Positions 1 through 56,600 of a stretch of DNA of 64,000 bases are shown here, piece after piece (the stretch's first letter is position 1; the number at the start of each line of letters is the position of its first letter). Location of the stretch: the NCBI GenBank assembly GCA_903813345.2, contig CAIIXF020000006.1, positions 14,326,348 to 14,390,347 of the forward strand, read 5' to 3'. The position numbers and the translations under genes were made by a program. The notes under the pieces were generated by a model that did not search any database, was not told the origin of the DNA, and saw only the letters and a list, made by a program, of their open reading frames with translations. The stretch comes from Owenia fusiformis (taxonomy: Eukaryota; Annelida; Polychaeta; Sabellida; Oweniidae).

Positions 1-52
1 CAGAGAACCATTTAGTGATAGGGTTTTAAGGCCAAGGAAGGAAACAGGACTG

Positions 53-8778: not shown

Positions 8779-11700
8779 GGAGCATTGCCATTTGATGATG
8801 ATAATTTACGCAATTTATTAGAAAAAGTAAAAAAGGGGGTGTTCCATATTCCACATTTTGTGCCCCCAGATTGTCAAAACCTTCTTCGCAGTATGATAGA
8901 AGTGGATGCAACTAGGAGAATAACAGTGAGTGGCTTTATATTTATATTCATCATTTTTGTAATTATGCATACTGTATAGTGGCTTTATATTTATATTGAT
9001 CATTTTTATAATCATGTATAATATATAATGCATAGAGTGATGAGTTGTATTATCTGTGATTTATATCTAAGTAATTACTTTGTATCATATATGGTATCAA
9101 CGAGTGCATCATCTGTTTTTGTATCAACGTTGATGAAATATAAAGAATCTTGATTCCAGAATATGTAGTTAACTTTTGTGCTTTGTCTTTTAAATGACAC
9201 TGTTGTGATAAAACATTTTGTTTCACTTTCTTCCTGGCAAGCAATTTTTGAAAATTTTATTTGATGAAGAAATGTTCGTTAATGGTAAGAGAATATTAGT
9301 TACTGAGCTTCTGTATTTCTTCTTTCCAGTTAGAAAGTATATATAAACACCCTTGGATGCAATTGTAAGTATTTATTTAGATATAATGTTTTAGATTTAT
9401 ATTTTATCATTAACCTTAGTCTTAATGGGAATATAAAAATGTTGGATTTGGGGCAGGATAAACTTAGGAAAATCAGAACTAGCAAGAACCAACCTTTTTC
9501 CAAATTGAAAGCTGACATGGCTTCTGAAAATACAACTACTTTACATTTAACTTATTTGCAAAATAACATGAGAATATATTTCACATCCTATTATTCCAAT
9601 TTTTATTATTTTTTTCTATAAAGAATGATGTATAATATTATTTTCTTTTCAGTGATGCTGCGGATGTTTCATTAGAAGTCCCTATGTCTCAAGCAGTACA
9701 GGTGAGTCATCTTATCATGTATAGTATTCATTCTATAGGTAAGTCATCTTATCATGTATAGTATTCATTCTATAGGTAAGTCATCTTATCATATATAGTA
9801 TTCATTCTATTGGTAAGTCATCTTATCATATATAGTATTCATTCTATAGGTAAGTCATCGTATCATGTATAGTATTCATTCTATAGGTAAGTCATCTTAT
9901 CATGTATAGTATTCATTCTATAGGTAAGTCATCTTATCATATATAGTATTCATTCTATAGGTAAGTCATCGTATCATGTATAGTATTCATTCTATAGGTA
10001 AGTCATCTTATCATGTATAGTATTCATTCTATAGGTAAGTCATCTTATCATATATAGTATTCATTCTATAGGTAAGTCATCGTATCATGTATAGTATTCA
10101 TTCTATAGGTAAGTCATCTTATCATGTATAGTATTCATTCTATAGGTAAGTCATCTTATCATGTATAGTATTCATTCTATAGGTAAGTCATCTTATCATG
10201 TATAGTATTCATTCTATAGGTAAGTCATCTTATCATGTATAGTATTCATTCTATAGGTAAGTCATCTTATCATGTATAGTATTCATTCTACAGGTAAGTC
10301 ATCTTATCATGTATAGTATTCATTCTATATGTAAGTCATCTTATCATGTATAGTATTCATTCTACAGTGTGTCCCAAAAAAAAGGAAACCAGCTATAGAT
10401 TGCTTATTTCTCAAATATGAATAATAATAGGAAAATTTCACAGCTATCATCTGATAGGTTATGATGTCCTCTTTCTTATGATACCAAAGGTGTTTATTTT
10501 TCTTCATGGATGACTGAGTTCTAAGAGATTTAAGTGACCATGTCAGAAATTGGTTTGTGCCACTTTTTCTGTCATGAATGGGTGAACAATGAGGGATTAA
10601 AATGGCTATGCAAGACCATGTCCTATTCGAAATACACATTTCTGAACAAGCATTCAACATAGCAAGTTCATGCAGCTGACCCAAGATCAAAGAGTATTCA
10701 TAGTAAGTGAGTGGCTCAGAAGTGGGAGCCTTCAGCAGGTTGCTGATCAGTTTAGAGTACGCTTCCCAGATAGAAATGTACCTGCTAAGTCGACAATCTG
10801 GAAGAATATCAAGAAGCATCAGAGAGAAGGAACAATTCTCAATCTCAACAAGGGACGTTCTGAAAGAAGAACAGCTCAGTCTGATGAAAACATCAGGATT
10901 GTCGCAGCAGTGGAGGATCTAAGGGGACAGAGAGACATCATCAGGGATGCAGTACGTGCGATGAGATCAAGGGCAGACATTTGCATTGAAAGGAATGGGG
11001 GTCATGTTGAAGGACACTGGGGTTAAAACAACTTTGAATGTACATTGGGATTTAAAAGGGGTGTTAAATATGATATGTGTAATTTTAATTGGAATAAATG
11101 AGTAAAAGAGTGATATCCTGATGTTTGTTGTTACTTATCACTTTGTTATGATGGTGAAATTGACTTGGCTGAAAGTGGTATAGGTACAAACTCATTTCTG
11201 ACATGGTCACTTAAATCCCTTATAACTCAGTCATCCGTGAAGGAAAATAGACAACTTTGGTATCATAAGAAAGACAACATCATAATCTATCAGATGGTAG
11301 CTGTGAAATTTTCCTATCATTATTCATATTTCAGAAATAAGCAATCTATTGCTGGTTTCCTTTTTTTGGGACACCCTGTATAGGCAAGTCATCTTATCAT
11401 GTATAGTATTCATTCTATAGGTAAGTCATCTTATCATGTATAGTATTCATTCTATAGGTAAGTCATCTTATCATGTATAGTATTCATTCTATAGGTAAGT
11501 CATCTTATCATGTATAGTATTCATTCCATAGGTAAGTCATCTTATCATGTATAGTATTCATTCTATAGGTAAGTCATCTTATCATGTATAGTATTCATTC
11601 TATAGGTAAGTCATCTTATTATATATAGTATTCATTCTATAGGTAAGTCATCTTATCATGTATAGTATTCATTCTATAGGTAAGTCATCTTATCATGTAT

Positions 11701-14700
11701 AGTATTCATTCTATAGGTAAGTCATCTTATCATGTATAGTATTCATTCTATAGGTAAGTCATCTTATCATGTATAGTATTCATTCTATAGGTAAGTCATC
11801 GTATCATGTATAGTATTCATTCTATAGGTAAGTCATCTTATCATGTATAGTATTCATTCTATAGGTAAGTCATCTTATCATGTATAGTATTCATTCTACA
11901 TGTCTATATGCATACACAGGCAAATAACATGGGACCCCGTACAAGCCCGTACGAAGCTCGTTGATTCAACATAACTAACATTCCCGAGGCTCTTACGAGC
12001 TCGGATGGGAGTCTACTGATGGGGCCCAATGTAATTTGCATGTGTATGATCATACCAGTTATGTTTGTAAATTGTAGATTGATATCAAATGTCAGTATAT
12101 ACCTCTATGCCCACCTATTACATTAATTAATTGTGTTTAGGGGAGGGGTAAAATAAAATGATATGCTGTTTTGAGTACATTAATTTGAAAATTGTCTTTC
12201 AATTGATGCACATGCTTATTGTCTATCATCCAAAATCCAATTGTTGTGAAAAGTTAGAATTAGATTGGTCTGTGAATTGTCAAGAAAGTTTACTAATTAA
12301 AAATATGCATAATAAGGCTGGTATGAACTATGTAAAAATAAGGAATTTAAAGTCTCAAGAGGTATGAAGACAAATTATATACCAAATTAAAGCTAGAGAC
12401 TTCGTATTTAAGGATCTGATATTAATTTTTTCTTCCAAATGTGCCTCCATTGCTATGGAACCGGGACGCAAAGGCAACGCCCACTTTTCAAATCTCTTTA
12501 TAAGTGGTTAATGCATTTTGGAGTATAACTTTATAGTTTCCAAACCAATCTTACTTTAATTGGTATCAGAAAAAGCGGAATAAAAATTTCTCTCATAAAA
12601 TGCATAAATTATCTTAAATAGCTCATTTGCATATTAATTATGACGTCATCAATCATATTTTCGTCAATAAATGTCAGTAGCCCCCTAGTGGTACCCTAGT
12701 TTCCCCAAGTTGTTCTCTAGTAGCCCTTATTGGTACCCTAATTGCCCAATTTTTTGTTCTCGCATAGCTCCAAGTGGTTCACTAGTAGACTTTAAACTCT
12801 TCTAAATAAGGCCTCTTGGAGGATTTCCTACTCGCCTAATAGGACTAGGAACCAATTATATATTCCTCATCACTTAATAATGAGGTTTCATTTTGATTTG
12901 TGTTTTCCTTCAATGAAAGGCAAGTTGTCCTTTATCTTATTTAATTCCATTTGTGTTCCATCAAAATGATACCTTTAATAATTTGCAAATTACACTTTCC
13001 GCATAATATGCCACATTTAAAACATTGCAATTTTAGATTGGTAACTCACCCTACACATAGAGCGCGAGCAAATTACTACGCTGGCTGCATTTGAAGAGAC
13101 TATCTGGCTATTTCTCAACTTCTTTCTCATGGTTTACTTTTTGGAAGCACCTACTGACTTATTTAAGATATTAATGTATCTTATATGGGTGGCAAACCAT
13201 ATAGTATACACTTAATTGAAGAAATATGACAAAAATATAGGAAAGTATGCCTACATAATGAATAAAATACGATGTAAAGTTGATAATTCAGAAAGTTACT
13301 GCGAAGTTTCCACTAAAGAATCTCAATATCCTCATATTATCACGTTAACTGAAGTATTATGAGAGTAGTATATACATTCCTAACATATTTTGCATCATTG
13401 AGGTTATTTTGAAGAATTTTACCATTATTTTTCCTGAGGAGACTTCATTTGAAATCCCGAGATCAAATTTTGGAATGAGAGGACTACGCGTGTCAATATC
13501 AACCACTTGGGATTAACACTACAACTTGAAAGATGCTATAGACTACTCAAATATCGACCACAGATCCAGTGCTCATGTGTATCAAAAGCACATAGACTGT
13601 GGAATAACTCACTATAATATAAAATTGTTATAAAATTTCGAACTTTTATACAAGGGTTGACCTGGGAGGGTAGCATTTGATCTTGAGCAGTGTTTGATAT
13701 GTCGTGCAATTTTACCAATAAATATATGGTTGCAATGTAGGCCTATCCAAAGAAAGTTACTTATGTGCATAAAATATATGTGTACAAGTGTCGAACTCTG
13801 TAAACAATTTTTGCACAGGTAATTAACAACAGGAATCATTTTTTTCATTTCACATATCATTTCTTCAGTGACTATCATTTCATTATCTTCGCCCATTAAT
13901 GAATCATCAAAATCAGTTGTTTCATCTTGAATCTGGACAGTGTCCATTTCATTGGAGGATTTGCTGCATTTAAGTTCAGTTGTCATTTCATTATATTGAA
14001 TTTCATGTGTTATTAAATCAAATTGACATTTCATTGGGGTTGAATTTTGAATTTTTGAACATTTCATTTTATTTTCATTAATTACACTTATTGTCATATA
14101 TTCATCGCTATCAATAATTATTCTTTTATTTGCGTTTGTCACTGCACTTGGTATAATTCTGGAGAAATTTCTTGTTGTTATTCTTATATTTTTTTATATT
14201 GTTATTGATCCTGCTAATTTTTATGAGCTTTAATCTATCATCTGGGTGTATTTCAAGTAGGTGATGAATCATATCTGTAAATTTCTTACATCTTCTGTTT
14301 GTGTTGCAATAGTAACATTCGAATCCTAGTCTGAAATAAAATGAAAACATTTTAGTATGCATTAGAATCATAAAATACTCACCCGCCGTAGTCCTCTCCT
14401 AAATTTTCGGCAGAGTTCTACTTAGGACTTGTACTGTAACAAATTCGGGCTATTATAGGATCTAATTACATGCATAGATTGTGGATGGGGTCATCATCGT
14501 TAGCTAGATGAAAAAATAAATGGAAATAATTTGGCGGTTTTTGGGAATTTGTTTTTATCTCAGCAGCACATGCCAATAGGTTGGCGTTTTATAGTAAGCT
14601 GTCAAGCATATCATTCTTTTAAGAAATTCAATAATCACATAAGCTTGAACAACAATAAAAATGTTGGAAAGAAAATTTACCTCTCTTCAGATATGTTTGA

Positions 14701-17700
14701 AATAGCCAGATAGTCTCTTCAAATGCAGCCAGCGTAGTAATATTGCGCGCGCTCTATGTGTAGGGTGTAACTGTTCTGTCAAATTGATACCTTATATACT
14801 GCAAATAACACCCTTTAACATTTTGTGCCACATTCGAAACATCACAATTATGAGTAAAAGCTTTTAAGAGATAATTTGCGAAAGCTTTCCAAGGTTGAAT
14901 GGTTTTCAGTGACATGTAATTTCTGTACTTTGCTGTAGAGCTGGTGTGATTAATTGTTTTGCACCGATAGCACATGGCACGGCAATCTATATTGGGAAAA
15001 AACAAATTAGGAAAACATTTATTCTTGCAGTGTATTGATAGTAGTAGATGATTGTTGCATACTAATGGAAATTAAAGTGATTTCTGTGGCAGTCTAACAG
15101 TAATTCTTTGCTTACCTCCTCAGTACAAAATCATCTATAGACTACTGATTGTGTAATACTGAAATGATTGTGTAATACTGAACTGATTGTGTAATACTGA
15201 ACTAGATGCAGACTAGATTCTGGTAGCTTACTACCATGATAAATGGGTGATTATCTAAAAACTGGGACCGTGAAGGAGTGTTCAAAATTTGAGATGTTCT
15301 TAAAGAGAGATATTAGATTCTCAGATGGATAAATATATTTCAGTTGTAATTGTTAATACAAAGGCTGTGTAAAACTTACCTAGATTATCTAATGTGAGAT
15401 ACATGTTTTTTCTCAATATATGATTTTAGATTAACATTGTAGTGAATTGTTTTATTGATAATAAATGTTCTAATATTACATGTTTATGTTCTCATCTGAT
15501 AGTATCATCAACTGTCTTCAGATTGATTTTTTTTCTATGGATTTGAAAATGCCGAAGAAGATGTGGAAATTAGGCCTATGCAGTGCAAAAATTTAGAAAT
15601 TAGGCCTATGTAGTAGAAGATTTGGAAATTAGGCCTATGCAGTAGAAAATTTGGAAATTAGGCCTATGTAGTAGAAGATTTGGAAATTAGGCCTATGCAG
15701 TTGAAAATTTGGAAATTAGGCCTATGCAGTTGAAAATTTGGAAATTAGGCCTTTGTAGAAGAAGATGTGGAAATAAGGCCTATGTTGTAGTAGATTTGGG
15801 AATTAGGCCTATGTACTAGGCGATTTTGAAACTAGGCCTATGTAGAAGAAGCTTTGGAAATTAGGTCTATGTCGTAGAAAATTAGAATATTAGGCCTATT
15901 ACTCACACCCTCCATTTACAAGGATTCTGCCTTTTGAAGGTCAATTGATATGTTCCATGTAGAAGATAAATGTTAATACCATGACATTTTACGATAATTT
16001 ATTTAAATTAAATGTCATTTCATCTTACATTCTACCACATCCAAATTTTCGACGTTCGATTTTCTTGATTGTATTTCACTCTTTTTTGTTAAGGCAGAAC
16101 CAGGGATCAAAAGGTGACATAATTGCAAGCAACTTGAGCACCTAACATATGATATTCTCCCCAAATTATCTATGATATCTTATCAAATTATGAATATCCT
16201 ATGATACAAAGTAGTGCAGAAGTACTTTCCAAAATAATAAATACGGAATTATGGAACTTATAGAATAGATATGAGCCCAAAATATTTCAAAAATCAAAAC
16301 ACTTTTTTGTGAAGTTCATTTTCAGATCTGATTCCCCTTTATTACTGTTATCACCATCTCAATCCAATACCTTTCGGTCAGATTTCCTCCAAGGGCATAA
16401 TAGTAAAATGTTGTTTACCAACGTGGATTCCAGGGAAACCAGGCCACCTCTTTTCCTTGTTGCAAAAGTATCTGAAAATAATGTTCAACTTGTAATAAGT
16501 GTAAAAAGAGTTGAATTAGCATGGACTAAAATGAAATGACATGAAAGATGCTCTTTTTTATATTAAGAAACGCCATAACATAATTTCAGTCCCTCAGAGT
16601 TCAAAGGTCAAGGTGTGAAATATTCATGATTTGAGTGACATTTTCTGGAGTGGAAATATTGATTTCTCGTATAAGAATAAATCCTATTTTGTAATACGCA
16701 GTAATGTAATAACGCTGTGGCTTAAATTCTATAATTGGTGAATTCTGTTTTTTGATGAATTGCAATATCTCTAATGACATATAGAAAACTTAGGATTTCT
16801 CAATCTGTGATTTCAGATTGTTATACTTTATATACAACTGTGTTTTCAAGTCTAATTATAAGATAAAAATTTCATGATATATCACAAATGACACTGCAAA
16901 CCAGGCTTTAAGACCTGGCTAAACACCACAATTGAATAAACCCCATTCCCAACATAATAATTAGTCATACTACCACATTTAGTCTTAATTAAATGCTCAA
17001 TTATACAATTGTATAATAATTGCCCTAAATGCACTACTGAGATTAACATGCTTCTGTTCATAATTCAGTCAATGCATGAACATTTTAGACACGCGGTACT
17101 AAATGGGGTTTCGATACGCCCCGGTGAGTTAGTACTGCGTGTTAGAAAGGCATCTTGGATAACTAACGTATGACACATTTTCATATGCATTTTAAAATCA
17201 AACTTGTAAGCTGGTAAGTATGTGTGGAAGGCATGGGTTCTGAAGCAGCCAAACCATTATTATTACTGGATGCAATGCCTCTTTGTTTTCTTCTTTTGTT
17301 TGTTTCCAGTGTCTGCATAGACAACCACATGTTACATTTTAGCTGTCCATATTTAATGATTCTTCTTTGTCATTTCAGACAGTGATTCTGTCTGCTCCAA
17401 AAAAACATGACACCTACACATTAGTGGTGTCAATTAACCGCTTGAGCATTAACCGGTTAACCGGGGGTTTTTACCGGTTAAAGTCGGTTAACCGGCGGGA
17501 AATTTGAACTGATAATTTCAAATGAAATCTTCATCTTCGATCTTGAAAGTTGAAAAAAATTGGAAAAATGATATATCGGCGTTTATTTTTACGTTCGTCA
17601 AGCTTTACTCTATTCTATGTAAGTAAGCGCGGGAAAGCAATGTGGCAGGAATTAAAGTTGCTGATTGGATGTTTGTAAGGAATTATCGGACCTATCACAT

Positions 17701-20700
17701 GTATGAGTAGCTCACATGAAACTGACGCTTGAAAAACAAACAGATTAAAATGCAAAGTAAGCTCGGGAAAGCAATGTGGCGGGGATTAAAGTTGCTGATT
17801 GGATGTTTGTAAGGAGTTATAGGACTTATGACATGTATGAGTAGCTTACGTGAAACTGACACCATAAAACCAAACGGATTAGCATGCAAAATAAGCACGG
17901 GAAATAACAGAATTATACACGGTCAACTAACCGCCCATAAAAACACAGACCGGTCAAGGCATTATCGGCGGTTAACCGGTTAACCGGTTAATACTTGACA
18001 CCTCTACTACACATCCATTTAACCAAATACTCTAGGTCTTCATCTATAGCTATTTAATATAGGGATTAATTTTTGTGATTTCAGACGTCAATTCTTCCGT
18101 CTGCTCCAGAAATAGACCCTGACATTATGACAACTATGTGCTCGTTACAATGTTTTAAAGACAGAGAAAAGTTGGTGCAAGCGTTACTTAGTTCAAGGTA
18201 AGTAGAGGCCACCTCTGCAAAGTAGGATGGAAGCATATAAACTAATAAAAGGAAGAAGAGTAAATGTTTATTTTGATTTACATTATGTATATTTAAGGAT
18301 TTAAGCCCTGGACTCAGTGCATTGTGGAGTGAATCATTCCTCTGAAGGTGTTGTTTTCAATTCTTTGCTTGACCATGCAGCGGGAATGCAAAGTTTAGGA
18401 ACAACGCCCGAGTGGAATGAATCAGCCATGATGCATAAGTCTTGGTCTTAAATTCTTTTCTTACATTGTGAAATATTTTACACAATAAAAAAGATATGAA
18501 ATGACTTAAAATAATATTCAAAGAAATCTTTTGCATGGGTCAAGTTTGCAAAGCATCAATTTCAATCTGTAGAGTCAAATTGGCACCTTGACAACCATTG
18601 TAGAATGACCTTGGGTGCAATGATTGGTTGTATAATGCAACTTGCTGTTATATGAAATACTTCCGATTAGCTGGAATCAGACATACCTTGCCTAGTTACG
18701 CGTGAATTACTCAGATGCAAGTTGGTAGTTACCAGTTTCGCCACCAGGTGGCTGATTCGGGGGAATTAACATGGCAGAGTATTACAAAATTCCCTTAAAC
18801 TTGAATATGCATCAGTTTTAATGGTTCACTTTTCATATTACCTTTATGTATCTGAAAGTTGATAAACTCTTTTCAAAACCACATTTCTAAATGTAATTTT
18901 ACATGTAGATTCCAAATATGACATCAGTGTGAATTATTAATGACGTAAATCAAGATTATTTCTACTCGCATCTGGGATATTAGGCATGAGAAGGTTGTTT
19001 ATTTCAGGCATTATTGTTTATGTCAACCATAATGCAGAAAATGTTGTATATTTCAAACATAATTCAGAAAAGGTTATATATTTCAGGCAGAATACAGAAA
19101 AGGTTGTATATATCAGGCATTATACAAAAAAGGTTGTATATGTCAACCACAATGCAGAAAATGAAATGTTGTTTATATCAGGCATAATACAGAAAAGGCT
19201 GTATATTTCAGGCATTGTACAAAAAAGGTTGTATATGTCAACCATAATGTAGAAAATGTTGTATATTTCAGGCATAATACAGAAAAGGTTGTATATTTCA
19301 GGCATTATACAAAAAAGGTTGTATATGTCAACCATAATGCAGAAAATGTTGTATATTTCAGGCATAATACAGAAAAGGTTGTATACTTCCTGCTCCTGGA
19401 TAGAAAGTTACGTAATCCATCGCTGGATGATGGAGAGGATATCAAAACTAAAACAGAATCAGGTGAACAATATTTTTATTCAACATTAGATCATGAAGTA
19501 TTGCAGCTTACAAATTGCTGGTTCATTTTTTTCACATTTGTATAATGAAGGGATTTTATGTCATTAAATTCAAAGTATTTGTCTTTGTAAACTGCTGTAA
19601 GATAACATGCTGAATGAAACATGAATCTAATGTGTATCCATAATTACCTAACTGCTTGCACCAGGAGCAGATCCCAAATGTTAAATGTATCTATATCTAA
19701 GTTGCAGCCGATCCACCAAGGAAGAGGATAGATACAGTGCAGTTAAATGGTTCTCCTAGGTACGTATTTTATCAATATAATTCGGCGCCGTTTCGGCATC
19801 GCAAAAATTTGGCACTGTTCCGGCACCATTTCGACACCAAAATTTGCCATCAGACTAGTCAGTCCATTTGGTGACAAAACGGCACCGAAATTTGGCATCA
19901 AAATGGCGTCGAAAATCATACTACATTTTAGGGGTGTATCCGACACTGTCATTCTTAATTGCTGATAACATACAGACAGCAGCTGTCATTCTGTTACAAA
20001 ATTTAAAAATAAAACATTTTACAGAAGAATGATGTCATCAATAGCTCCAGATAAAATCCAATATGTGTCATGTGTTTCATTTATTTGTCATCCTCATAAC
20101 TCTAGAAATACAGCCCCAATATTACTTATGTATTTCTGCATCAAATGTAATCAAATGTAAATTAAAGTTAGATATGATAACAAATATGTTTTGTTCTGTG
20201 CTATTTACTACTTTGTGAAGTTGCATTTTTCTTGTAACTAGGATCCAAAGTTGAAAATAAAAGGAGTAAAACATGTCTGGGAATTTTCATAATCATGAGG
20301 GTGTATTTGCTGTAAAAATTGCATGAACACCTTTTGGGGGAATTGTGAGAATTAATTTTATTTTTTCATTGCAGGCTATCTCTGGGTAACATTAGTGAAG
20401 GTTCTCCCATTGCTCCAAGAAGGGCACTAACAGTCCACAGAATGTAAGTTCCCATAGTGGACCTTGTATAGTAATGCAGATGTTTAAAATAGCCCAATGG
20501 GTCTTTACTTAACCAGAATTATTGCCATAATCATCCCTTTGGTAGAAATAACAATCTGAGTCCAAAACAGGCCTTTTAGATTATTACAGAGCAACACCAA
20601 GGAATTCTATTAATATTGTTAGTCCTCTCATAGGCGCTTTGGGTTAGTAAGTTGGAATGCAGAATATCATTATTTGAAGATCTTTTGTACTGCACAAGTT

Positions 20701-23700
20701 CATCTTGACATTCAGAGCTTTGCATTATAAAAGGAATGATAATAAACACACAAAAAAGAACAAATATAGCTATTTAAAGAATTAGAATTATTTTCCTTTT
20801 TTAATTATTTTTTTTCAAGTTCATATATTATAACAATTAATATCATACAATGAAAACTCAACAAGGTTAATCAATAATCAATATTTTCCATTTCAGACGA
20901 AAAAGTAGTTTGACAGGTGTGTCAATCACAGACAGTTGTCCCGGGTCACCAGTTAGCAGTCCCCGCACGCTTCCACGTACGCCACGCACTCGCAGTATTT
21001 CTAGGTAGGGATTAAGGTCATTTTAAGGCATATTGCATATAGCAATCTTGGATATGAAACTTAATCTCTGAGAGAGTTGCTTATGTGAATGACAAGTACC
21101 TTTAAGGAAATTTGTTTTCCAAAATGTTTATGGTTATATAATTTTGTACATAGTACCTTACACAAAAGGCTGTCCCCACACATTTTCCTATATTCTACCA
21201 GTTTCCCACAGCTCGAACTTAATCTCTGGTGACCCTCAATTGTGACTCTTCAATTTTTGTAATTTAATATACCATCTAGTATATGGTACATATAAACAGC
21301 TTGCATGATCAATTACACTCTTCAATTTGAGATAATTCCTTGATCGACATTGTATCCAATCAAAGTACTGTATATCCCAAATATCATGACACTACACATA
21401 TGTGTTATGCGTATGATTAGCTGAAATTCATTTTACATTCAAACTTCTATATAATGTCCTATCATTTGCATATAACTAAACATCAAAAATACAATTTCAC
21501 CTGTAATAGTCAGAGAGCAATGTGTCTTCTGACATGAGTGATTGAGGGTGTGCATATTCTTAATGCTTACTTCCAGGGACCGCAGTGGTGAACCGAGGTT
21601 ACAGTCCACACCCCCGGGATCACCCTCCAGCCAAACTGCACCCTGGCGCACTAGGCTTACTTCTATCAAAAATAATTTCCTCGGTTCTCCAAGGTTTCAT
21701 CGTAAGAAAATACAAGGTAGGAAATGTTGTGTTGTAACATGAATCGGGGAAACTGAGTATTATAAAGTTCACCTGAAAACTGTTTCAAACAATCTTGAAA
21801 ACAGGGAAAATCAGAAGAAATGGGCCTTAGTGAAAATTAAAATTTGATAAAGACTTGTGAGAACACCATACTCTAATTTATTTTACATGAACAGTATGTG
21901 CATAAGCGACAATTTGAAGGTTGATTGAATGGCATGAATAAACTGTTATATAATAATAAGATTTTACATTTGATTCACAGAGTAGGGCAAGAAATGCTGA
22001 GTCAGAAATATTATATCTATATTGGGCCTATATTATTTTAAAGCAGCTATCACATAATAGTGATTTGTGGAGTATAATAATGTATGATCAGAATTACAGA
22101 TATTATCCAGCAGTGTATTCAGAATATTATTCCATCATGACTTGTTTGCTTTCAGGCAATGGAGAAGATCTGCTTATGACACCACCTGACTCTCCAGAGT
22201 AAGTTATAACATGCTAATGAGGTTGCTACTGCTAGGAAAATCTTTCTGCAGCTTAAATTACCGTTTTTAATGAAAAAAGACAAGATATTCAAAATACAAG
22301 ACACAAGTTCTATAAAGATATCTAACATTATTGTCATTGTTACATTATAAAAGACAATTTGAATCCATGAATTATGATCGAGAATTTATTACTTTCAAAA
22401 GACAGGTCTAGGTCACACTGACCTTGATTGCCACACTGTTACATTACTGGTGTAAAATGGAATAGCTCAGAGAGTGTTAAAAACACCATGTAAAATATGA
22501 AACCAAATCTTATTAGATATCAAATTATTAAAATGTTAAGAAACTTTGACAATATCTGATGTAACCAATTACTTGAAACATAGTAAGTTGAATCTCATGA
22601 CAACATTTAGAGCCAGTCAAAAATGGCAAAATAAATACACAACAAAGTACATTTTATCACATGTAGGACCACATAGTCATTAACAGTTTTAGGACTGTAG
22701 ATCTAAAAATGACTGTGGCAAATTAAAATAGATGAGCCAAATAGGCTACAAAGGGATATACAGTAAAACTATGGCAAGGCATGGAAGTATTTTAAACTTG
22801 TAATAATTTTCAAAATGTAACTTCCTCATGTCTCTATTCTTGCCCATTTAATATCAGTTTTATCAATGCATGTATAGATATTGGTCTCCTCTAATATTGT
22901 GCAATGATCATATTTCATATTTTCATCTTTAGGTTGTCAAAGAGGTCGTGGTTTGGTGCACTAATGGGTCAACCAGAGGAGCATCATTTTGTAATGGTGA
23001 AAGATAAAGCTTTGAATGAAATAAAAGCTGACCTTATCCATGCGTTTTTATGTGTAAGTATCACCTGTCTGTAAATCTTCAAACTACTTTCCCCTTTTAA
23101 ATTTCCTGTAATCCTTTACACATAGATCCTTTGGCCATCAAGATTATATGTCATTGTCTACATGTGTAAATATCAAAATAATTTCAAATTGAGCTAAAAT
23201 ATATATTTATTTTTGAACTTAATTTAATTAATATTTATGTAGCTTAATAGGGTGATTGTCCACACTAGCACACCAATGATCCATCTCAATAAGCTGGTTG
23301 GATTTTTGAAATAATCCACGTTAATGTAATTTATTTTCTTGTAGACTCCGGATCTATGCCACAATGTAATATCTCCCACATCATTCCGGGCTGAGTACAA
23401 GAGATCAGGAAGTAGCTCTCTTCTCTCACGCAATGTCAGATTCCAAGTAGATATATCGAGGGCACATGGTCAAGGGGATGCAGGTGTCATGTATTGTGTC
23501 AACTTTACACTTCTAGCAGGTTTGATATTTGGAGTCTTATAATAATCTAATAAGGATATGTGTGATTAATCGAGAATTAAATGACTTTTATAAGCCTTTT
23601 CCAATGTAAATACAGTGTACTGGTATGTAGCCCAACCAACACAAGTGCTGTCATCTATTTTTCCATTCATATACCAACAGGTCAATCGTTTTTGTTTTGT

Positions 23701-26563: not shown

Positions 26564-26910
26564 AAATAGAGTTCTAAATTAAAAGTGAATGACGTATATC
26601 ATATTATATATAATGTATATAAATATAGTATATACAGTATATACAGTTTTTGAAGAGATCTGATGTAAGTAGTAAATATCACTGTGGTCCGAGAAAGATA
26701 TGATATATCACTCCTTTTGAAGTGTAACATGATTGATATTGCTGAGTATCGCACGACCTTCCTTGAGAATGGTCGCGTCATTAGACTGTAAAGAAAGCAA
26801 TCAATCAAATAAGAATTCGAAGCATCTGTGTAATATCTAGTCAAAGATGAAAGCCAAATGAACGAAGTTGAGAGATGTTGAAATATCAAAAAAGCTTGTG
26901 AGATGTGCTG

Positions 26911-26916
26911 AATAAA
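26911..26916 (+). promoter_or_regulatory. Possible BRSK polyadenylation signal
   Basis: AATAAA lies about 350 bp after the stop codon, in the sequence 'gctgaataaactgta'. Confidence 0.4.
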
Positions 26917-37525: not shown

Positions 37526-37531
37526 AATAAA
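37526..37531 (+). promoter_or_regulatory. Possible polyadenylation signal of FMO copy B
   Basis: AATAAA about 140 bp after the stop codon, equivalent to 6233 in copy A. Confidence 0.5.
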
Positions 37532-39983: not shown

Positions 39984-40016
39984 AACCACACCTGAAACAA
40001 GACACACAGTGATAAA

Positions 40017-44018: not shown

Positions 44019-47000
44019 ATGGATAAAAACTGTAATCAATCGATTGTAAAAGTAGATGAAACAAGTTCAAAACTAGAAAGTGAAATCGAAAGTGAAATAT
44101 TTTCCACTCCAAAGCTAAACAAAGTGATTAAATCCACGTCAAAAAGGATTTCATCCTACAAAAAACTTACTGATACCTTCAAGTCTCCTGTAAGTATGAC
44201 TTAAATCTGGGAATACAGTGAATATCAAAATACCACCTGAATGCTAGTCTATGTACTTTGGAACGGATTTGTGCTTACAGCTGTAGGCTACATGTACCTA
44301 ATCCCTAACGAAACTCGTCTGGCCCAGATATCTACTCCCCGATTCTGAAATGTCGTAGATCTATGACTTCAGGAGTAGATAACTGGACTAACGGGTTTGG
44401 TTACCTAATCCCGTGCCAGGACTATAGACTATAGTCCTGGCACGGGATAAAGGCTACCCTTTGCAGTCGTTAGACTTTGCTTCTCAAAAGAGAGCTTCAT
44501 CTTTACTCTTTCAGTTTTCAATAAATTGCTGAACTCGCCGCACTAATCAGAGTTCGTTGTCGAGATAAGGACGACTTTCTATATATGGTCATTTTCTCTA
44601 AGATAATGCATAATTATTGTGCACGCATAAGCACTTGTTCCTTCCAGCTCAGTGATTGGTTGAGAATATGTCATCACGGTAGGTATGAAATGATTTATGG
44701 TCCGAGCTGTCACGGGCATCGGTCGTGGGGGCGGGGCTGCTAAACTGTAATATAGTCTATACTAGGCAGAAGGTAGTTTATATCCTGTCAATCACTCTGA
44801 CAATAAATTAAGCAACTAACGTCATTGTACGGTACTTGTAAACTGTGTAAAATATAAATACTTGTGACTTCTCTCACAGGTTCTTGGTAAAAGTGGTAAA
44901 GTTTAAATATCAAATGGTAGTCTACACTTTGGAGGCTTGTCTACTTAGTGCTTGACAAGTCAATTGGTTACTATGTTAGGGGAAAATGTGCAAATTTGAA
45001 AGTTGGTAACCCTGCTAGGAATGTTAGGTATCCGGCATTGTGGGTCATATCCACTCTACAGTAGCACCAGGCGGATATAGTCGAGTGTAAAATTGAAGTG
45101 CCTTGCCACATTGTCTAACATGAAAAACATGAAATTTACCATATTATAGAACAAAGTCAATTTTAAGTAGCCTACATGTACTTTCATAAATATGTAACTT
45201 TCTTTTTAAAGATTTTCATTCATAAGAAAACTTATAATTAATCATCGGTGGCAACACTGGCGAGTGCAATTTTTCATTGGCGATTCATTTCACAAGTCGA
45301 TTGCCACTTGTTGAGTAATAGAAAAATCCTAAGACCCACACTGTCCGGTCACCCAGTTTTTTACGCAAACCCACTTTGGAAATAGAAATGTTAAGAAGTA
45401 GGCGTACAGTGTACAATAAGCAAATACAGTGTATATGTAATTACCCTCAATTGCAAGTCACTGCTACAGCCCAGATGTACCAGCTAGCCCCTATTGGCTA
45501 AAGAGGTAGAGGTCAGAATTTGGAGTACCCCCATAAATGTGGCATTTATTATTTAAATCACCTCTCACAACTACTTCTGAATTGAAATATTAGGGTTGAA
45601 AATAAGCTGGATGAATGATTATTTAGATGAAATTCAGCGTTGACTACTGACAATGATTTCCAACCCCAAGTTTTCAATACACAAGTAGTTCTGTTGTGGG
45701 GGGGGGGGGTGATATGAAAAATCAACCTCGCATTTGTGGGGGTAACTTTGGAGGGAAGGATCCTGGGTTCGATTCCTGCACAGGGCATTGAATTTAGCAC
45801 ACTCTCTTTCATGTCTAGTACTGGTATCTTGCTTGTTACACTACAGCTCCCTGGATGTGTGCCCATGGGTTGTTACATTGGTGTCAGACGTGGGATTTAT
45901 CCTTGGGTATACTCAGTTACGATGGGACATCGTCTTTTAGGAGGATGGTGCAATGTCCCTTGATAGCAAGTTACTACTACAGCCCAGTGTAGCAGCTAGC
46001 CCCTATTGGTCAAAGTGGTGGAGCTTCAGACTTGGGAGCAGAGGGCCTGGGTTCAATTCCTGTATGGACCATTGTACTTAGCACATTCCCTTTCATGTCT
46101 AGTATCTGGTTCATTCATTACACTACAGCTCCCATGGGTCGTTACATATACACTAAATTGCATCTTAGGCTAAGCCTCCAACTCTCCTAAACATAATGAT
46201 CAACAAATCAAGTTGTCTGTCTGGCCAAATGTCTCATCCTAGACTCACCTCTTTCAACAGTTCAAAGGCTGACTGAGCTGATAGTACATTCTGTTCTATC
46301 AGATCAGTCAGCCTTTGAAAGAGGTAACCCTTAGATCATTTAACCCCTGGTCCCCACATTTGCCAGGGATAGATTCTTAACATACAAGGACTGGGCACCA
46401 AGGTCAAAGCATTCATTCCAGAAATTACCCGCATTTCTGTTTACAAAGGGCACCTCATGTACTTAAGGTCATGTGGGAGACATGGATCAACACTGTTAAG
46501 GTCACACAAAGTCAAAGTTCAATCCAATCACACCTGAAAGGTCAAATGCTTAATCAAGGTCATTCTCAAGGTCAATGTGCAAGTGTATTTGAATTGCAGT
46601 TTAAAGCTCAAAGAAAACTGGAAAACAAATTGTGCTACAAATAATCTAAATATTATAAAGATAAACTGTGTATGCATGTATATCTTATTGAATTTATTTG
46701 TGGAAAACTGTATTAATTGTATTTCAGGTAGTAAAACAAACTAATGAAAAGAGGACTGGCCAAACTGCAGATTCTTTGCAGTCAGAGATTGATGAATTGT
46801 TGAGAAAAGAGAATGAACTGGATACAGAAATAAATCTGCTTGAACAACAGTATGTATCTTATACAGTTATAATGTATAGTTGTTTTTAATGTCATTTGTC
46901 ACCATTCAGAAAAGTAGTTTATTCACAATCTCATGGCTGTTATGGACTCCACTGTTTCATGTATCTCTAGCCAGGCGTATAGGCATGTTTGAGGTATTGA

Positions 47001-49022
47001 GGTATACCTCACAATTTTTTTCAGAAAAATATTGATTTAAACATGTTGTTTCATTTTTGCGTCATGAAGTAGATTGTGAGATTATATTGTTATAGCAACC
47101 ATTTTTGACTAGTCTTTTGTGTTGGTGTTTGCTAAAAAATATTTTCTTCGTCCTAGATTAGGCCTTCAAGGGGAGCTAATTGGATAATTCATTATGTTAC
47201 ATTCTTCTAATTCAATAGAATAACTGAGTACAATGCTGTATTGTGATAAGTAAAATCATGTCACATGATAAGTATGCTTGTTGCATTTCAGAGATCTCCA
47301 TGAGGATGAACTAGCTAATCATATAACCATGCTGCATAAATACAATGAAATGAAAGATATTGGACAGATGCTGTTAGGACGTATTGGTAAGGTATAACAC
47401 CAAATACATAGAGGATATCCTATCATTTTTGAGGGATACCATTTTTATCCATGAGTGGATATCACCCATTTCCAAGAGTGAGTGCAGCGAATGAGTGGAG
47501 ATCGGCGATATCCAAAAATGGATAAAAATGATAGTCTGAGAAAATCATAGGATATCATATTTATCCTAAGGTTGCATGCTATTTTTGTATGGACTTGAAA
47601 TAATTTGACTTAAAAGTTGTTGTTTTCTCATTCTTTTCTATTTTTCATTTTAATTTTTGTCTTATGTCGTTATCCCCATATATATTTAGCCGGATAGAAT
47701 ACAAAACTTGCATAAATATTTACATAATATGACATTCATTAATTGAATGGGACCGAAGAGATGAATTTGGGGCGGTAAAAAAGACAGTTCCTAGTCATGC
47801 TATCTAAATACTAATAAAGTATGTGTCATATTTTCCAAAGCTTTAGTCTCGGCAGCAGTACTGCATGATTTTCCTACTTTCTATTAGGTAATAGGATGAA
47901 ATAGCTTTCCACACATAAAACACATGATAATATATGCATACCGGTGTTAGTGAAGTGTATATTGTCACTAATCACTATACACAGTATATATTCTGCAGAA
48001 TTTTGGGTTATTGTATCCTCAAATGAAGGCACATTTGTATATGACATGAGCATTGTCAGGGAGGTGTGATGTGTGTGATTGTCTCAATTTGTTGAAAAAA
48101 CAATAACAAATTATAGTTTGAAATGCCTAACATGCACCCTATTCATGTAAAGGAAGACGGAAAGTATTGCAACAGATTTGGGACAGTCATATGTTGGGTT
48201 TTGGCTATTTTCTGAGGGTATAAACAGGTGCATACATTAGGCCAAAGCATTACCTCCAGGAAAAGCACTCATAGAGATGATAAAATAATTTGGTCTTTGA
48301 GACAGGGAAGGTGCAAACATCCCAAATACATGTTTTTCTGAAAATGTCCCGATTTTCAACCCCTTTCACCCCTGCTTTTCAATTTTTGTTGCATCAATAT
48401 GTTGTGTTTTGAAACACATTTACACATTTTAAAGGAACAAGTAATTCCTTCAGGGGTTTTAAAGATATCCATTTTGGGTGACCAAAATTAAGCTGAAGGT
48501 AATGGATCGCATGAGTTTTCCCTATGGGAAAATAAGATGGGAAATATTATTTTCCTCTTTATTACTTATTCATTTAAAGGGGTTACCTGTGTCTCAAAAT
48601 CCTGGTGTTAGGAGTTTTGCAGTTGGCATTAACATGGCATCTGTAACAAATGGCAGGTGGTGACATTTTGCATGTTGATGCATGTAATGTTATAATAGTT
48701 TCCAACTTTTTATGAATGGTGGTTGGTGTCTGTAACTAATGACATGGCATCTGTAGCAAATGGCAGGTGGTGACATTTTACCTTGTTTACCTTTGAAACC
48801 CTGTCTAATATCAACTACCTTACCTCGGATTTTGTTGTTTTTCCAATTTTCATTTTGAGCCAGAAATTCATAAAACCAGAACTTGTCTAAGCAATGTCCC
48901 CAAACCAAAGCTACATATGCATTTTGTGTTCAATAAATGCAATTTTGTCTACAGCTCATCAACAAGGAACAACAACGAAAGATTTATATGAAAGGTACAA
49001 CATAGATCTAAATGATGACTAA
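44019..49022 (+). CDS. SWI5: DNA repair protein SWI5 homologue (complete, 4 exons)
   Basis: Exons: 44019-44189, 46728-46849, 47292-47386, 48955-49022. Joined in phase they give 151 aa. SWI5 pairs with SFR1/MEI5 and stabilises RAD51 filaments in homologous recombination. The C-terminal half carries the family pattern: a coiled-coil-like helix (EIDELLRKENELDTEINLLE), then HITMLHKYNEMKDIGQMLLG, then TTTKDLYERYNIDLNDD at the stop. The N-terminal 57 residues are polar and low in conservation, as in animal SWI5. The start was chosen for its good context (aaaATGG). In-frame ATGs at 44007 and 43986 are weaker alternatives. The introns contain a perfect palindrome and a SINE pair. Confidence 0.92.
44408..44448. 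repeat. Perfect 41-bp palindrome
   Basis: Two 20-bp arms ('atcccgtgccaggactatag' and its exact complement) flank a single A. It lies in SWI5 intron 1 beside a looser inverted repeat around 44320-44395 ('agatatctactcc' with 'aggagtagataact'). A diverged relative of that flanking repeat is at about 57770-57825. Confidence 0.9.
45451..46160 (+). mobile_element. Two tandem tRNA-derived SINE copies (first one interrupted)
   Basis: Both copies carry 'cagctagcccctattgg' followed by an A-box-like 'aaagtggtggagc' and a B-box-like 'gggttcgattcctg' or 'gggttcaattcctg' (45768-45778, 46050-46060), then a shared tail with 'agcacactctctttcatgtc'. Copy 1 is split between about 45530 and 45725 by an insert containing a G run. 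No tRNA cloverleaf is intact. Confidence 0.7.
46247..46325. repeat. Hairpin in SWI5 intron 1
   Basis: 'acctctttca' + 'aaggctgactgagctgatag' pairs with 'ctatcagatcagtcagcctt' + 'tgaaagaggt', giving arms of about 33 bp with one bulge around an 11-bp loop. Confidence 0.8.
47411..47557. mobile_element. Inverted-repeat element in SWI5 intron 3
   Basis: 'aggatatcctatcattttt' and 'ccatttttatccatgagtgg' on the left have imperfect complements on the right ('ccaaaaatggataaaaatg', 'aatcataggatatcat'). Non-coding. Confidence 0.6.
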
Positions 49023-49753
49023 CAAAAAGGCAAAATTGAAAACCAGGCACCACTTTTAATGTAAGTAAGTACCCTTGTATTTTATGATAAGCTTCAATGG
49101 AAATTGCTGTACATGTAATCAGTCACCTTTCACTAGATTTGACCTTTAGTGACCTCCTCAAGGTCAAAAGGTCTTTTTGGCTCACACAGTGAGCCTATGG
49201 GATCGACCAGGCGTCCGTCCGTCCATTGGTCCATCCGTCAACATTGGCCGCAAAATTAAAACTGCTATTCGGATTGATTCATATCCACATTCATTTTATG
49301 GATATCCATAATATGCCTATTTGACCTATCATCGCCATTTCCCAAGTTCGCCCAGTTTCCGAGAAATTGCTGATTTTGACGTCAAAACATCTTCTGTAAA
49401 TACTTGACACTTTGTTGAAGTAGGACTTTCAAATAACTTGAAGTAGTTGCTGCATATGCAACTTAATTGTTCTGTGAAGATTTAAAAGCTCTTGAAATTA
49501 CAGTTTTTGGTGTTTACTCTATAAAATTTGACAAAAAGTAGGACTGTAATTTTCAGGGAACTTTCTCATGTATAAAGTCAATCATCATTGGCTGCACAAA
49601 ACACTGTGTGAGCTCAGGACCGTGGGTCCTATATTTTACTATATTTTATTGGTTGAACTGGCAGGTCATCATTGCGTCATCACTGTTATAGTTATAATCA
49701 CATATTCATCATATATATATATATATGTTACAAACATGCAGTACAGGCTTTAA

Positions 49754-50159
49754 GGTACAGCTGGAAAATAACATTTTTGTAAAAAATTGCTATAAATGCA
49801 CATGTTATTTTCTGGTACAAAATAAAGTATGAAGGCATATATCAATTTCCTTGCTTTTTTCAGGAAAGTATCATTACATTGTCTTCTTTTAGAATAACTG
49901 GTAGGAGTTCAATGGTAACTCCAGAAAATTCTGATATTTCACACTATCTATTTTTCAAAATTTTCTTTCAAAGTTTCCAGACAACACAGGAGCTACTATT
50001 GACCTGTTTTCAGGTTTACTAAAAGTAGACAGTGTAATGATACTTTCCTGAAAAAAGCAAGGAAATACACAAATACACACATGCCTTCATACTTAATTTT
50101 GTACCAGAAAATAACATGTGCAGCAATTTTTTATCAAAATGTTACTTTCCAGCTGAACC
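49754..50159. mobile_element. piggyBac-type MITE with TTAA target sites
   Basis: The 406-bp element begins 'ggtacagctggaaaataac' and ends 'gttactttccagctgaacc', with TTAA on both sides (49750-49753, 50160-50163). The arms are extensively complementary for about 170 bp (e.g. 'ttgcttttttcaggaaagta' near the centre). No transposase. It lies between SWI5 and the hexosaminidase gene. Confidence 0.85.
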
Positions 50160-50475
50160 TTAAGCATATACCCTATATTGACCAAATATTGGTCATCGTT
50201 GTATCACACTTTATGTATAATATACTTAGTCATCATGTAATATTATTGGCCTATATTGCACTATTGCTTGTCTACTATTTCCTCCATTATTGCACTAGAT
50301 ACTATTCCTTGTCCAGGAACAGTTGTATTTTATGTCCGAGGTATAGCTTATTCTTGTCCAGGTATTTCATTTTGAGGTCATACCTACAGGTAGGGATATT
50401 ATTTTCAGGTGTATCATGTTCAGGTAAAAAAGTTCACAGGTGTACTAAATTTCAGGCACATGTGTTTTATCATGT

Positions 50476-50640
50476 TCAGGTATTTTCTAGGTGAGCATGT
50501 TCAGGTGTATCATTTTCAGGTATATTTTGGGAGTCATGTTCAGGTGTATCATTTTCAGGTATATTTTGGGTATCATTTTCAGGTATATTTTTGGTTCCAT
50601 GTTCAGGTGTATCCTGTTCAGGTATGTCGGTAACATCTAT
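50476..50640 (-). repeat. Translated minisatellite: [10 protein letters not shown]-type C-terminal tail
   Basis: In the last hexosaminidase exon the repeat 'ataytacctgaaaatgata'-like unit ('tatcattttcaggtatat' on the plus strand) is read in frame. It gives about 45 residues of [28 protein letters not shown] and [10 protein letters not shown] variants before TGA. Similar degenerate units continue past the stop to about 50400. Human HEXA and HEXB end shortly after the last Cys, so this acidic, Pro-rich tail is an extension. Confidence 0.85.
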
Positions 50641-53600
50641 TTCTTGTACAGGTATATTACATGAGCCAGGTCCACTGTTGGGCTGTAATTTAAATCCTCT
50701 CCTGAAACATAATTAATACTTCATTCATATGCTAGAATAACTTTTAATAATGTCTTTTATCACAATCTTTCGAATTCTTCAAAATATAATGTTTTGATAT
50801 AATATATAATATAAAAATATTGCTTAATTAACTTTAATGCTTTCGAAGTAATTTCATTTTGATGAGATGTAAGACAAATTTGGAAGTAGTGAATCTCCGT
50901 AATGAGGGCTGATGACACCACCACCTTTCATGTCATAGGACAAATGCTGTATACTGTATAGGATATATTGTGTTGTGATTTTAGGATAAAGCTTTCATAT
51001 TTATAAGGGAAATTTCTCATTTCTGAAATGGAGCTAGAATTGTGATGATTTTGATGTATTGATATATTACTTTACACAAATACTTATATATCTCAAAGTG
51101 ACAATATACGAGTATCTCAAAATCAACACAGTGTTACGAGGGGTGATCAATAAGTAATGGACGCTTTTTTACACAGATGCTTTTTATAGACCAATTCCTT
51201 CGATTTTCTTACCTGTGATACATCATTCAATTATGTATCAACTCTGAAGATTTGAAGACAAAATATATAATACATGTTGATATATCCCCATTTCCGTGAA
51301 GGAGGTACAGGTACCCCGGGACCGACATTTACGTCACATATTCTGAAGCTATTTTAGCTTGTTTAACATGAAATGCAGTTGAATGCAGGCTGAACAAAAC
51401 AAACCATTATGGTCATGAATTACCCCATTTTGTTATGCCATAGTTGATTTTGAATATTTTATCATCACTATGTGGTATTCATGCCACATTCATTCCACAA
51501 GGCCCTCTAAATAGGTTCCATCAAGTGCTACATGTACACAATTCCCCATCCCCTTAACTCAAGATTGTGAGACAAGGCTGAATCCATTCTCTGACATGGT
51601 AGCAAGATGCAGTTGCACGGGTTGTTTTATTTAATCAATGTTAATAAACCTGCGTCCTTTCTCTATAAAATAAGTAATATAGAAATAAACAAGTCACATG
51701 TGAGTAGATGTTGACAATACAGTGCATTGGCCAAGGGTCAATTTTGAGGTCCAGGGATATTGTTTTCTGAACATTTAGAGATCTGTGGGCAGGTGCATTG
51801 TCCATATGGAGTAGGGTGTTCCCTTCTCTCACCACCCCTTTCTTCCACAATGCTTTCTCAAATTGATCTGCAGACCCCTTCCATACAACACTCTGACATT
51901 ACAATACTTTCTCTTTATGTGTTACCAGTCAGCAAAAAATTTCAAACAATACAACACGTGTTGCATATAAAAAGTTCAAATCTCACTCAAATTTACCAAT
52001 CTGGCTAAAAACTGAATATGTGACATAAATGTCGGTCCCGGGATACCTGTACCTCCTTCATGGAAATAAAGATATATCAACATGTATTATATATTTTGTC
52101 TTCAAATCTTCAGAGTTGATAGATAATTGAATGATGTATCACTGGTAGGAAAATCAAAGGGATCGGTCAATAAAAAGTGTCTGTGTAAAAAAGCGTCCAT
52201 TACTTATTGATCACCCCTCGTACATCACAAATCACAGCAATCGTTTGGCAGCTTTCTTTACCTTATAGAGCGACATCTCTGCTCCTCAAAGCGTGAACCA
52301 GCTTTCTCAGGATCTATCAGATCTTTGGAGCTCCAAAGTTTTTCAGCAGTGGCTTGACCCCTTGGCCTGGAAAATTGAAAATTAACAGTAATAAGCTGAT
52401 AATGCTTTTATGATAGGGCAGAGGCATAAATAAATTGGGTTGAAATTTTAAAAATATGTTGTACATTTTTCTCATCTTGAAGCTTTCATGTTGCTCATCA
52501 CAACCAAAAACCTAATGGTGTATAATTAATGGCAAAATCAATATATGTGTTTGGGAAGATAGAAAGTTTTTATGTTGTCATGAAAGGTTTTATGTTGTCA
52601 CGAAAGCTTAACTCATAAACTTACCAGACTGATGGTATAAGGTTGTTGTCATCTATGTATTCACCCCACATACAAGCCTCTCCCCCTAATACATGCTCTT
52701 TCATTTCTAATGTCCCTGAAATATACAAGTATTCATTTGAGATTGTATTACATCTGTTTGTTCTCCCCACATACAAGCCTCTCCCCCCAATACATGCTCT
52801 TTCATCTCTAATGTCCCTAAAATATACAAATATTCATTTGAGATTGTATTACATCTATTTGCTCTCCCCACATACAAGCCTCTCCCCTTAATACATGCTC
52901 CTTCATCTCTAATGTCCCTAAAATATACCAGTATTCGTTTGAGATTGTATTACATCTATTTTCTCTCCCCACATACAAGCCTCTCCCCCCTAATACATGC
53001 TCCTTCATTTCTAATGTCCCTGAAGTATACAAGTATTCATTTGAGATTGTATTACATCTATTTTCTCTCCCCACATACAAGCCTCTCCCCCCTAATACAT
53101 GCTCTTTCATTTCTAATGTCCCTAAAATATACCAGTATTCATTTAAGATTGTATTACTGTATTTGCTCTCCCCACATACAAGCCTCTCCCCTAACAATCT
53201 CCCCCTGAAATATAACAGAGTTAGATTTTAGTATAAATTGCAATATTCATGGAACTTTAAGTACAGAAACCAAACGAATGGTATTGAGTCATTGGAATAT
53301 GTTGAGGTTGTGAAACAAATCTGTATCAGTATGTTGATTGTACTTCTCTTATATGTTACCAGGGAATAATACCGGTAACATCCATCCTGAATTAGGCATT
53401 TTAGCCTAAGAATCCTTCCTTATAACATCTCTACCTTCAAGAGGATTAGTGAATATCATTAGCTGTCATTGTGTAACATTGCTCAATTTTGACCAAATCA
53501 AACTTTTTGCAAAATTTTAGAGCACCTGAGAAAAGAGTATTAACCAGAGAAGCCAAACTCACACTGACACCCTAAGAATCCTACATAATAATAGCCATAT

Positions 53601-56600
53601 ACCTTCAAAATCTCTTGGATCACTGTTGTACATTTCCATCCAATCCGGGCCATATTTAATTGTATCCAGATACCAATGAGCAGATGTTATAGCATATAGT
53701 CCATGAGATGTTATCTCCTCTAGTTTGTAGTTATCACTCTTCCATACTTGGATTATAGTGCTGTTGTCCAATGGCACATCATTGTCATATACATCTTCCC
53801 ATACTATTTTACCCTTTTTGTGGTCTATTGTTGTCCATATGTTTAAAAGACTGAAAGTAAATCAATAAGTTATTTACTGAGAAGGACTACTGAATATGGG
53901 ATTATCTACTAGATATTAAATACTTTTTACATTTGTTTTAATGGTATATTGGCACCAATATGATTGTGTATAATAAGGTACTCAGTAATGATTTACATGA
54001 AATAGTATACTAACTTGGTTATGAAATATGCAAATAATTCTTTGAAGTCATAAAATCCCCAGTGCATCTTCTTCATAAAAGCCCATACATCTTTGTTGAA
54101 TTTCCTGGAATAGAAAACATGTTAAAGTATAGTGTCAATATAATTCAGTATGGTGTCAAATAGCAATTTGGATTTGCGTCACCAAGTTATTAACAATTCT
54201 TCAAAAATAATGAAGATTGACCCAAAAAGTAACTCACTTTCACAGATTCTTAACTATTGACACATTTCAGAAATGAAAACCAATATAAAAAGCAAAAGCT
54301 TTACATGTTCATTGATACAAATGTGGTACAGCAAAACTAACATGCATGTACCTCTTTAAACCAGTAGCATTTAGGTAAAACAGGATTCACTGTAGAATGT
54401 ATTTGCAATCACAGAAGTAAATAATTTTGCAATCACAGAAGTAAATCAAAGAAGAAAATACAAAGTACAATAGCTTCCAATGCCAATTTACCAGACATCT
54501 GCTATCTCTCTCTTGCATAGGAGGCCTCTTTGGAAAACTGATGACAAAATGATAGGTGTGTATATCGATGCTTTCAATGATATCTGTCAACTAAGATCTA
54601 GATAGCACATTAATTAAATGTAGAGTTTATTTGACATCTTGTCAAATGTCTCATTTCATCTGTAAAATAGATCACTAATTGATATGCAGTTTTATTGACC
54701 AGCTTGTTATCATCTTGTGAAGGAAACATACAGTAAGACATGTGATAATGGAACTTCTTTAATACTTAAAATAGTGTTTCAAATATGAGGTGTAACACTT
54801 ACACAGGCTCATTTTATATTGATTTTGAGAAAAGGCCATTTGGAAAGTGTTCCACATAAAGTGGTGTTCCACTTACAGAGGTGTTCAATTTAACATGTTT
54901 TAATGTACATACAACAACTGCAATATTATTTTAAAAAAAAGAAATATCTGCCAAGCTATTGAACCATTTATTTACATTCTGGCATGCTATACTCTTTCAC
55001 TCTTTTCAGCATTCATATGGGCATTCGTCCCCTCCCAGGTGAATATACTGGTTCACAAAGACATCATTCACCTCACTACAAATGTATGACCAACACTTAC
55101 CAGCATTCATATGTGCATTCATCCCCTCCCAGGTGAATATACTGGTCCACAAAGACATCATTCACTTCACTACAAATGTATGACCATCACTTACCAGCAT
55201 TCATATGGGCATTCGTCCCCTCCCAGGTGAATATACTGGTCCACAAAGACATCATTCACTTCACTACAAATGTATGACCAAAGACATCATTCACATCACT
55301 ACAAATGTATGACCAACACTTACCAGCATTCATAAGGGCATTCATCCCCTCCCAGGTGAATATACTGGTCCACAAAGACATCATTCACTTCACTACAAAT
55401 GTATGACCAAAGACATCATTCACATCACTACAAATGTATGACCAACACTTACCAGCATTCATAAGGGCATTCGTCCCCTCCCAGGTGAATATACTGGTCC
55501 ACAAAGACATCATTCACATCACTACAAATGTATGACCAACACTTACCAGCATTCATATGGGCATTCATCCCCTCCCAGGTGAATATACTGGTCCACAAAG
55601 ACGTCATTCACTTCACTACAAATGTATGACCATCACTTACCAGCATTCATATGGGCATTCGTCCCCTCCCAGGTGAATATACTGGTCCACAAAGACATCA
55701 TTCACTTCACTACAAATGTATGACCAACACTTACCAGCATTCATATGGGCATTCATCCCCTCCCAGGTGAATATACTGGTCCACAAAGACATCATTCACT
55801 TCACTACAAATGTATGACCAACACTTACCAGCATTCATATGGGCATTCATCCCCTCCCAGGTGAATATACTGGTCCACAAAGACATCATTCACTTCATTA
55901 CAAATGTATGACCAACACTTACCAGCATTCATATGGGCATTCATCCCCTCCCAGGTGAATATACTGGTCCACAAAGACATAATTCACTTCAATACAAATG
56001 TATGCCAACACTTACCAGCATTCATATGGGCATTCATCCCCTCCCAGGTGAATATACTGGTCCACAAAGACATCATTCACTTCACTACAAATGTATGACC
56101 AACACTTACCAGCATTCATATGGGCATTCGTCCCCTCCCAGGTGAATATACTGGTCCACAAAGACATCATTCACTTCACTACAAATGTATGACCAACACT
56201 TACCAGCATTCATATGGGCATTCGTCCCCTCCCAGGTGAATATACTGGTCCACAAAGACATCATTCACTTCATTGAATAGCTTGTATAGTATAGAATATG
56301 TTGATTGTTTTGAGGGGTCCATGGGTCCAGTAAATGTGGGACCACAGTCCGTGAGCAGTTCTGGCATCCCTTTACCCCAAGATTCTGTGTGGCCTAGAAT
56401 AATGAATAAACATATGTACATATGTATACAGTTCAGTATCCCCCCCTAGTTCCATTTTCATTGCCTTACAAATTCATTGTTCACTAGAGTTCATGAGTAT
56501 AAAGTATAGCCTAATATAATGGTTTACTCTTGTGAGTATGTGGTAGTATAAATATGATATACAAAATGCAATCAATCCCCAACATCATAATAGTCTATAA

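Follow-up and report, generated by a model that had tools for sequence, protein, structure and literature searches.

Minisatellites that repeat splice sites are widespread at exon borders in the annelid Owenia fusiformis

Minisatellites whose units cross an intron/exon boundary are known from amphioxus as "mirages"; a role in intron gain has been proposed for them, and the arrays are reported not to disturb regular splicing (PMC3087553, PMC3902484). The genes concerned are the globins BflGb6 and BflGb9 and Adh3, with troponin C and PGBD5 named as well. Other papers describe minisatellite expansion at exon-intron boundaries in recently duplicated human genes within segmental duplications (PMC2812944), a potato gene that gained an intron through a boundary-crossing tandem duplication that copied the splice signals (PMC4974935), and intronic minisatellites in earthworm metallothionein (PMC12783039). 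No report of boundary minisatellites in annelids or in Owenia was recognised in the literature, as covered by titles and the beginnings of abstracts, with most subscription journals outside that coverage. Here we describe exon-border arrays in a 64,000-bp stretch of the Owenia fusiformis genome, referred to below as the window (C6:14326348-14390347, on contig CAIIXF020000006.1 of assembly GCA_903813345.2; 498 Mb, of which 477 Mb lie in 12 large contigs), and at sampled places elsewhere in the assembly. The window contains an FMO gene, a gene for the kinase BRSK (plus strand), and one for beta-hexosaminidase (HEX; minus strand). The arrays at the exon borders of the latter two are of the kind known from amphioxus, and they are widespread in this genome.

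An earlier note on this DNA had claimed that four arrays in these two genes begin or end on a splice site and carry that site in their units, and Tandem Repeats Finder, combined with splice sites read from the sequence, bears this out. In the BRSK gene, the donor GT at position 9702, directly after the exon at 9653-9701, opens an array of 37-bp units, each of which includes only about two bases of the exon. The array consists of one block of 18.0 copies at 9700-10364, most of whose units contain the exact donor word AGGTAAGT, and a second block of 14.1 copies at 11379-11898, in agreement with the earlier count of about 32; the two blocks form a single array interrupted by a 1,013-bp element (10366-11378, plus strand as drawn) with inverted ends of about 193 bp (91% identical). 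The exon at 9653-9701 was read from the sequence and itself gave no family match, whereas its neighbours match UBA_BRSK. That profile recognises the exons at 18085-18195 and 19357-19461, the former (18085-18197 as read, the first part of the UBA domain) also matching solved BRSK2, and KA1_BRSK matches downstream. The second of these exons carries the acceptor array, 12.4 copies of a 30-bp unit at 19014-19389 (about 12 had been counted), with the true exon start, 19362, in the last unit. Just on the intron side of another BRSK exon, whose donor lies near 8926, we also observed a 49-bp two-copy repeat (8929-9027) in which the full donor is not repeated.

The HEX gene shows the same arrangement on the opposite strand. 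The donor GT at 56203 of the exon at 56204-56393 opens a 94-bp array spanning 55007-56272, in which about 13 units can be read, as the earlier count had it, and in which Tandem Repeats Finder also reports longer higher-order variants; each unit comprises the last part of the exon and about 27 bp of intron. The acceptor array (52650-53191) holds 5.4 copies of a 101-102-bp unit, close to the five counted earlier, and its last unit is the true exon, 52625-52715, which starts at 52715. Both exons match GH20 (the second 1 bit under the Pfam cut-off) as well as human beta-hexosaminidase chains. A fifth repeat, at approximately 50468-50625 on the minus strand, is indeed translated at the hexosaminidase C-terminus.

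The theme recurs well beyond the window. For the donor word AGGTAAGT, 13 arrays were listed, and 12 of them lie on apparent coding-exon ends, including those of BRSK and of a duplicate of it described below; the exception is L004. The families involved include UDP-glucose dehydrogenase, a Muted-like gene, a NIF-type phosphatase, and an Ig domain, with family matches backing L002, L003, L005, and L011 along with the neighbours of the BRSK exon. No Pfam match was obtained for L006, L007, L008, L009, L010, L012, or L013 (the last drawn from the single-word list of AGGTAAGT, outside the 13 arrays), where exons were judged by open frame and recognition. Three exons, in L005, L013, and L036, have arrays on both their acceptor and their donor sides. 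The 12 of 13 are no proof of a hotspot, because AGGTAAGT is itself a donor signal, and exons were therefore sampled independently of repeats.

This second sample consisted of 134 exons (76 kinase and 58 kinesin) found through protein-family matches blind to repeats and taken with 350 bp of flank on each side, for a total of 125,222 bases; a few regions overlap slightly. The exons were hand-picked from 288 listed places (two lists of 144) for partial matches and mostly short open frames, with one or a few per cluster. Judged by reading, 10 of the 134 exons (3/76 kinase, 7/58 kinesin) have between them 11 borders inside arrays that repeat the splice site, a few percent of the exon edges sampled, and both ends of exons are affected: four are donor borders (L036, L054, L137, L140) and seven are acceptor borders (L036, L071, L121, L126, L148, L154, L156). 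We take the kinases of L036, L054, and L071 to resemble PAK, MAP2K, and CDKL, respectively. Arrays beside rather than over the splice site (L068, L087, L124, L136, L157) were not included among the 11, and the sample leaves out L160/L161, noticed through repeated kinesin matches, and L098-L101, retrieved for the hexosaminidase family. Two further border arrays occur in 20 random regions of 3.8 kb (76 kb), one in L170, on an open frame, and one in L179, where Pfam recognises the exon. Duplicated splice sites do form ladders in this genome, and extrapolation gives roughly ten thousand border arrays in the genome, with a several-fold error.

A natural comparison is offered by a duplicate of the BRSK region, L001, which was found through the 37-bp unit, some 33 kb upstream of the window copy. 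Its positions 1-10000 align to 7708-19652 of the window in blocks that are mostly 93-98% identical (87% in the weakest). Both arrays are present in L001, the donor array with 12.0 units (18.0 + 14.1 in the window) and the acceptor array with 15.4 (12.4 in the window), and the 1,013-bp element is missing. The two copies share the arrays at unlike copy numbers, which suggests that the arrays predate the duplication or travelled with it and that their lengths have diverged since. The duplicate also bears on a stretch at 17379-17421 (plus strand), which had been put forward as a half-copied BRSK exon and an early stage of border copying. It resembles the acceptor and the start of the exon at 18085 at 81% over 42 columns (E 0.02); in the window it is followed by a 585-bp insertion (17422-18006) that L001 does not have, and in L001 the true exon start follows it after 113 bp. 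We reject the early-stage interpretation and retain the stretch as, at best, an old and degenerate two-copy boundary duplication that may later have been split in the window by the insertion, a match that at E 0.02 could also be due to chance.

The arrays are probably best understood as boundary minisatellites of the mirage type, produced by ordinary tandem duplication in an array-rich genome and tolerated at exon edges, the edge itself not attracting them. If a duplicated segment straddled the border between an exon and the adjoining intron, the splice site would be present twice, the extra copy lying in the intron, and slippage or unequal exchange could then expand the unit, further growth only lengthening the intron. 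The true exon would be kept at the outer edge, as the first unit of a donor array or the last unit of an acceptor array, and if the outermost site is the one spliced, the protein would be unchanged and the remaining copies would be intron. On this view, the abundance of border arrays reflects the genome's wealth of tandem arrays and the tolerance of those that fall on exon edges. The state of the extra donors fits this picture. Across 16 donor arrays, the walk reached 184 extra units, of which 169 retain GT, compared with approximately 93% (in our weighting) for the remaining dinucleotides of these units, and in six arrays not chosen by AGGTAAGT (HEX, window BRSK, L036, L054, L140, L170) it is kept in 44 of 46. 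Extra donor sites are neither purged nor specially retained, and they are lost no faster than the sequence around them.

The likeliest alternative is that mutation itself is concentrated at exon borders, making them genuine hotspots for the duplication of long units, for example through microhomology at the splice consensus or breaks tied to transcription; we consider it unlikely. The earlier note had raised this possibility together with the caution that the association may be partly chance. Arrays with a unit of at least 25 bp cover 7.3% of the window, which has an estimated several dozen splice sites, so that four covered sites are about what random placement would give. When arrays with a minimum unit of 25 bp and a minimum score of 100 were counted in the exon sample, they covered 10 of 268 profile ends (two per exon, some of which are not splice sites), 12-14 of 268 positions at 10-160 bp into the intron, and 8-9 of 268 at 200-300 bp, as against 9.1% of random bases (region bootstrap 3.7-15.7%). 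Coverage at the ends is thus not above that of nearby intron or random DNA, and the proposal that borders are hotspots is not supported by coverage. By distinct arrays, too, the donor word is not enriched: among the matches listed, which for this word extend to C6:25.1 Mb (about 232 Mb), it forms 13 arrays, whereas a control word 1.8 times as frequent yields 12 up to C2:29.6 Mb (about 92 Mb). Of those 12, eight were examined by reading and none contains a splice site, the control array L021 beginning 28 bp past an apparent donor.

Three observations nevertheless weigh against an indifferent edge. First, of 11 arrays with units of at least 45 bp, 10 touch a profile end, against 5.8 expected on circular shifting (p 0.008). 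Nine of these ten carry the splice site, and the tenth, L157, lies 14 bp beside it and was scored as touching all the same; the p-value is tilted toward a hotspot because flanks of 350 bp hide or cut long arrays near the region ends. Shorter units have no such preference (2/6 versus 2.9 expected, and 5/30 versus 6.5). Second, raw triple matches per single word are about twice those of reversed controls for the splice-site words: AGGTAAGT gives 332 matches in triples and its reverse 326, with 19,109 and 33,902 single words, and TTTTCAGG gives 243 and its reverse 51, with 55,592 and 23,493. A few long arrays contribute most of these raw counts, and the reversed controls differ about fourfold from each other. 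Taken with the distinct arrays, word counts lean in both directions, and we do not use them as a test of the hotspot. Third, a hexosaminidase relative on C10 (L099 3601-3797; L182 1542-1742) has a separate duplication, of 96 bp in two copies, at the homologue of the acceptor covered by the 101-bp array. Its exonic breakpoint falls within 1-2 bases of the one in the window gene, to the extent that the units, which are imperfect, allow this to be judged. Recurrent breakpoints, if true, would be the clearest sign of a hotspot determined by sequence, but a single coincidence of this kind proves little. Among other GH20 stretches, L098 and L101 have no repeat of unit at least 20 bp, and L100 has a repeat located in an apparent intron. 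Microhomology at the breakpoints was looked at through runs of self-matches, which were too ragged to measure. The occurrence of arrays at both ends of the three exons noted above also favours a hotspot. A fair statement is that border arrays are common, tolerated, and possibly preferred for long units. The boldest form of the hotspot idea, in which borders are real recurrent starts of long-unit duplication, breakpoints recur in homologous exons, and some ten thousand edges bear near-identical splice-site ladders that supply new exons and introns, strikes us as quite doubtful.

That the ladders are functional, with inner sites making alternative proteins or controlling messages, seems very improbable to us. 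Inner sites are intact in most units, and the 30-bp BRSK acceptor array, at ten codons per step, is open in frame with the exon across 15 units in L001. Among those units, however, the differences comprise 44 nonsynonymous and 6 synonymous changes, so that no coding constraint is visible, and we reject a coding role for this array. As read from the sequence, splicing at an inner HEX donor would meet a stop codon at once, and, as described above, GT is retained no better than other dinucleotides. Tandem arrays commonly cause assembly errors, but it is scarcely credible that the arrays are artefacts of this sort, given units that bear private and higher-order variants, two BRSK copies that share arrays but have unlike inserts and copy numbers, and the presence of arrays in many unrelated genes.

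Some further repeats and features were observed in passing. The start of a kinesin exon is repeated tandemly with a 159-bp period in L160/L161 (C2:23266359-23269174), which accounts for 18 places among the profile matches listed, and L172 has a 119-bp two-copy repeat (2944-3178) that seems to run across the 3' end of a coding sequence, stop codon included. Within the FMO gene region of the window, a weak reverse transcriptase match, below the Pfam cut-off, lies at 2983-3333.

In comparison with the systems described at the outset, the Owenia arrays are like amphioxus mirages in that their units span the intron/exon boundary, both 5' and 3' borders are affected, and copy number varies between gene copies, the last shown here by BRSK and L001, which are duplicates and not alleles. 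Somatic instability has reportedly been seen in the amphioxus Adh3 mirage. The present arrays differ in belonging to an annelid, in reaching about 32 copies, and in that the sampling covered the whole genome and not single genes; for the amphioxus mirages splicing was examined, whereas the Owenia arrays are known from genome sequence. The same difference holds for the human boundary repeats, which have been linked with altered transcripts and new introns. In the potato case the reported outcome was a new intron, whereas the additional copies in Owenia resemble passive intron sequence. For gene prediction, the 18 tandem copies of one kinesin exon piece among the matches listed for a single profile search serve as a warning. 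If the sampled rate holds, this genome contains thousands of natural arrays with 2 to about 30 near-identical splice sites in a row, which would amount to an experiment, already set up by nature, on the spliceosome's choice between equal sites. They would likewise provide a test bed for the gain of introns and exons from boundary duplications, a subject that the published accounts considered here take up gene by gene.
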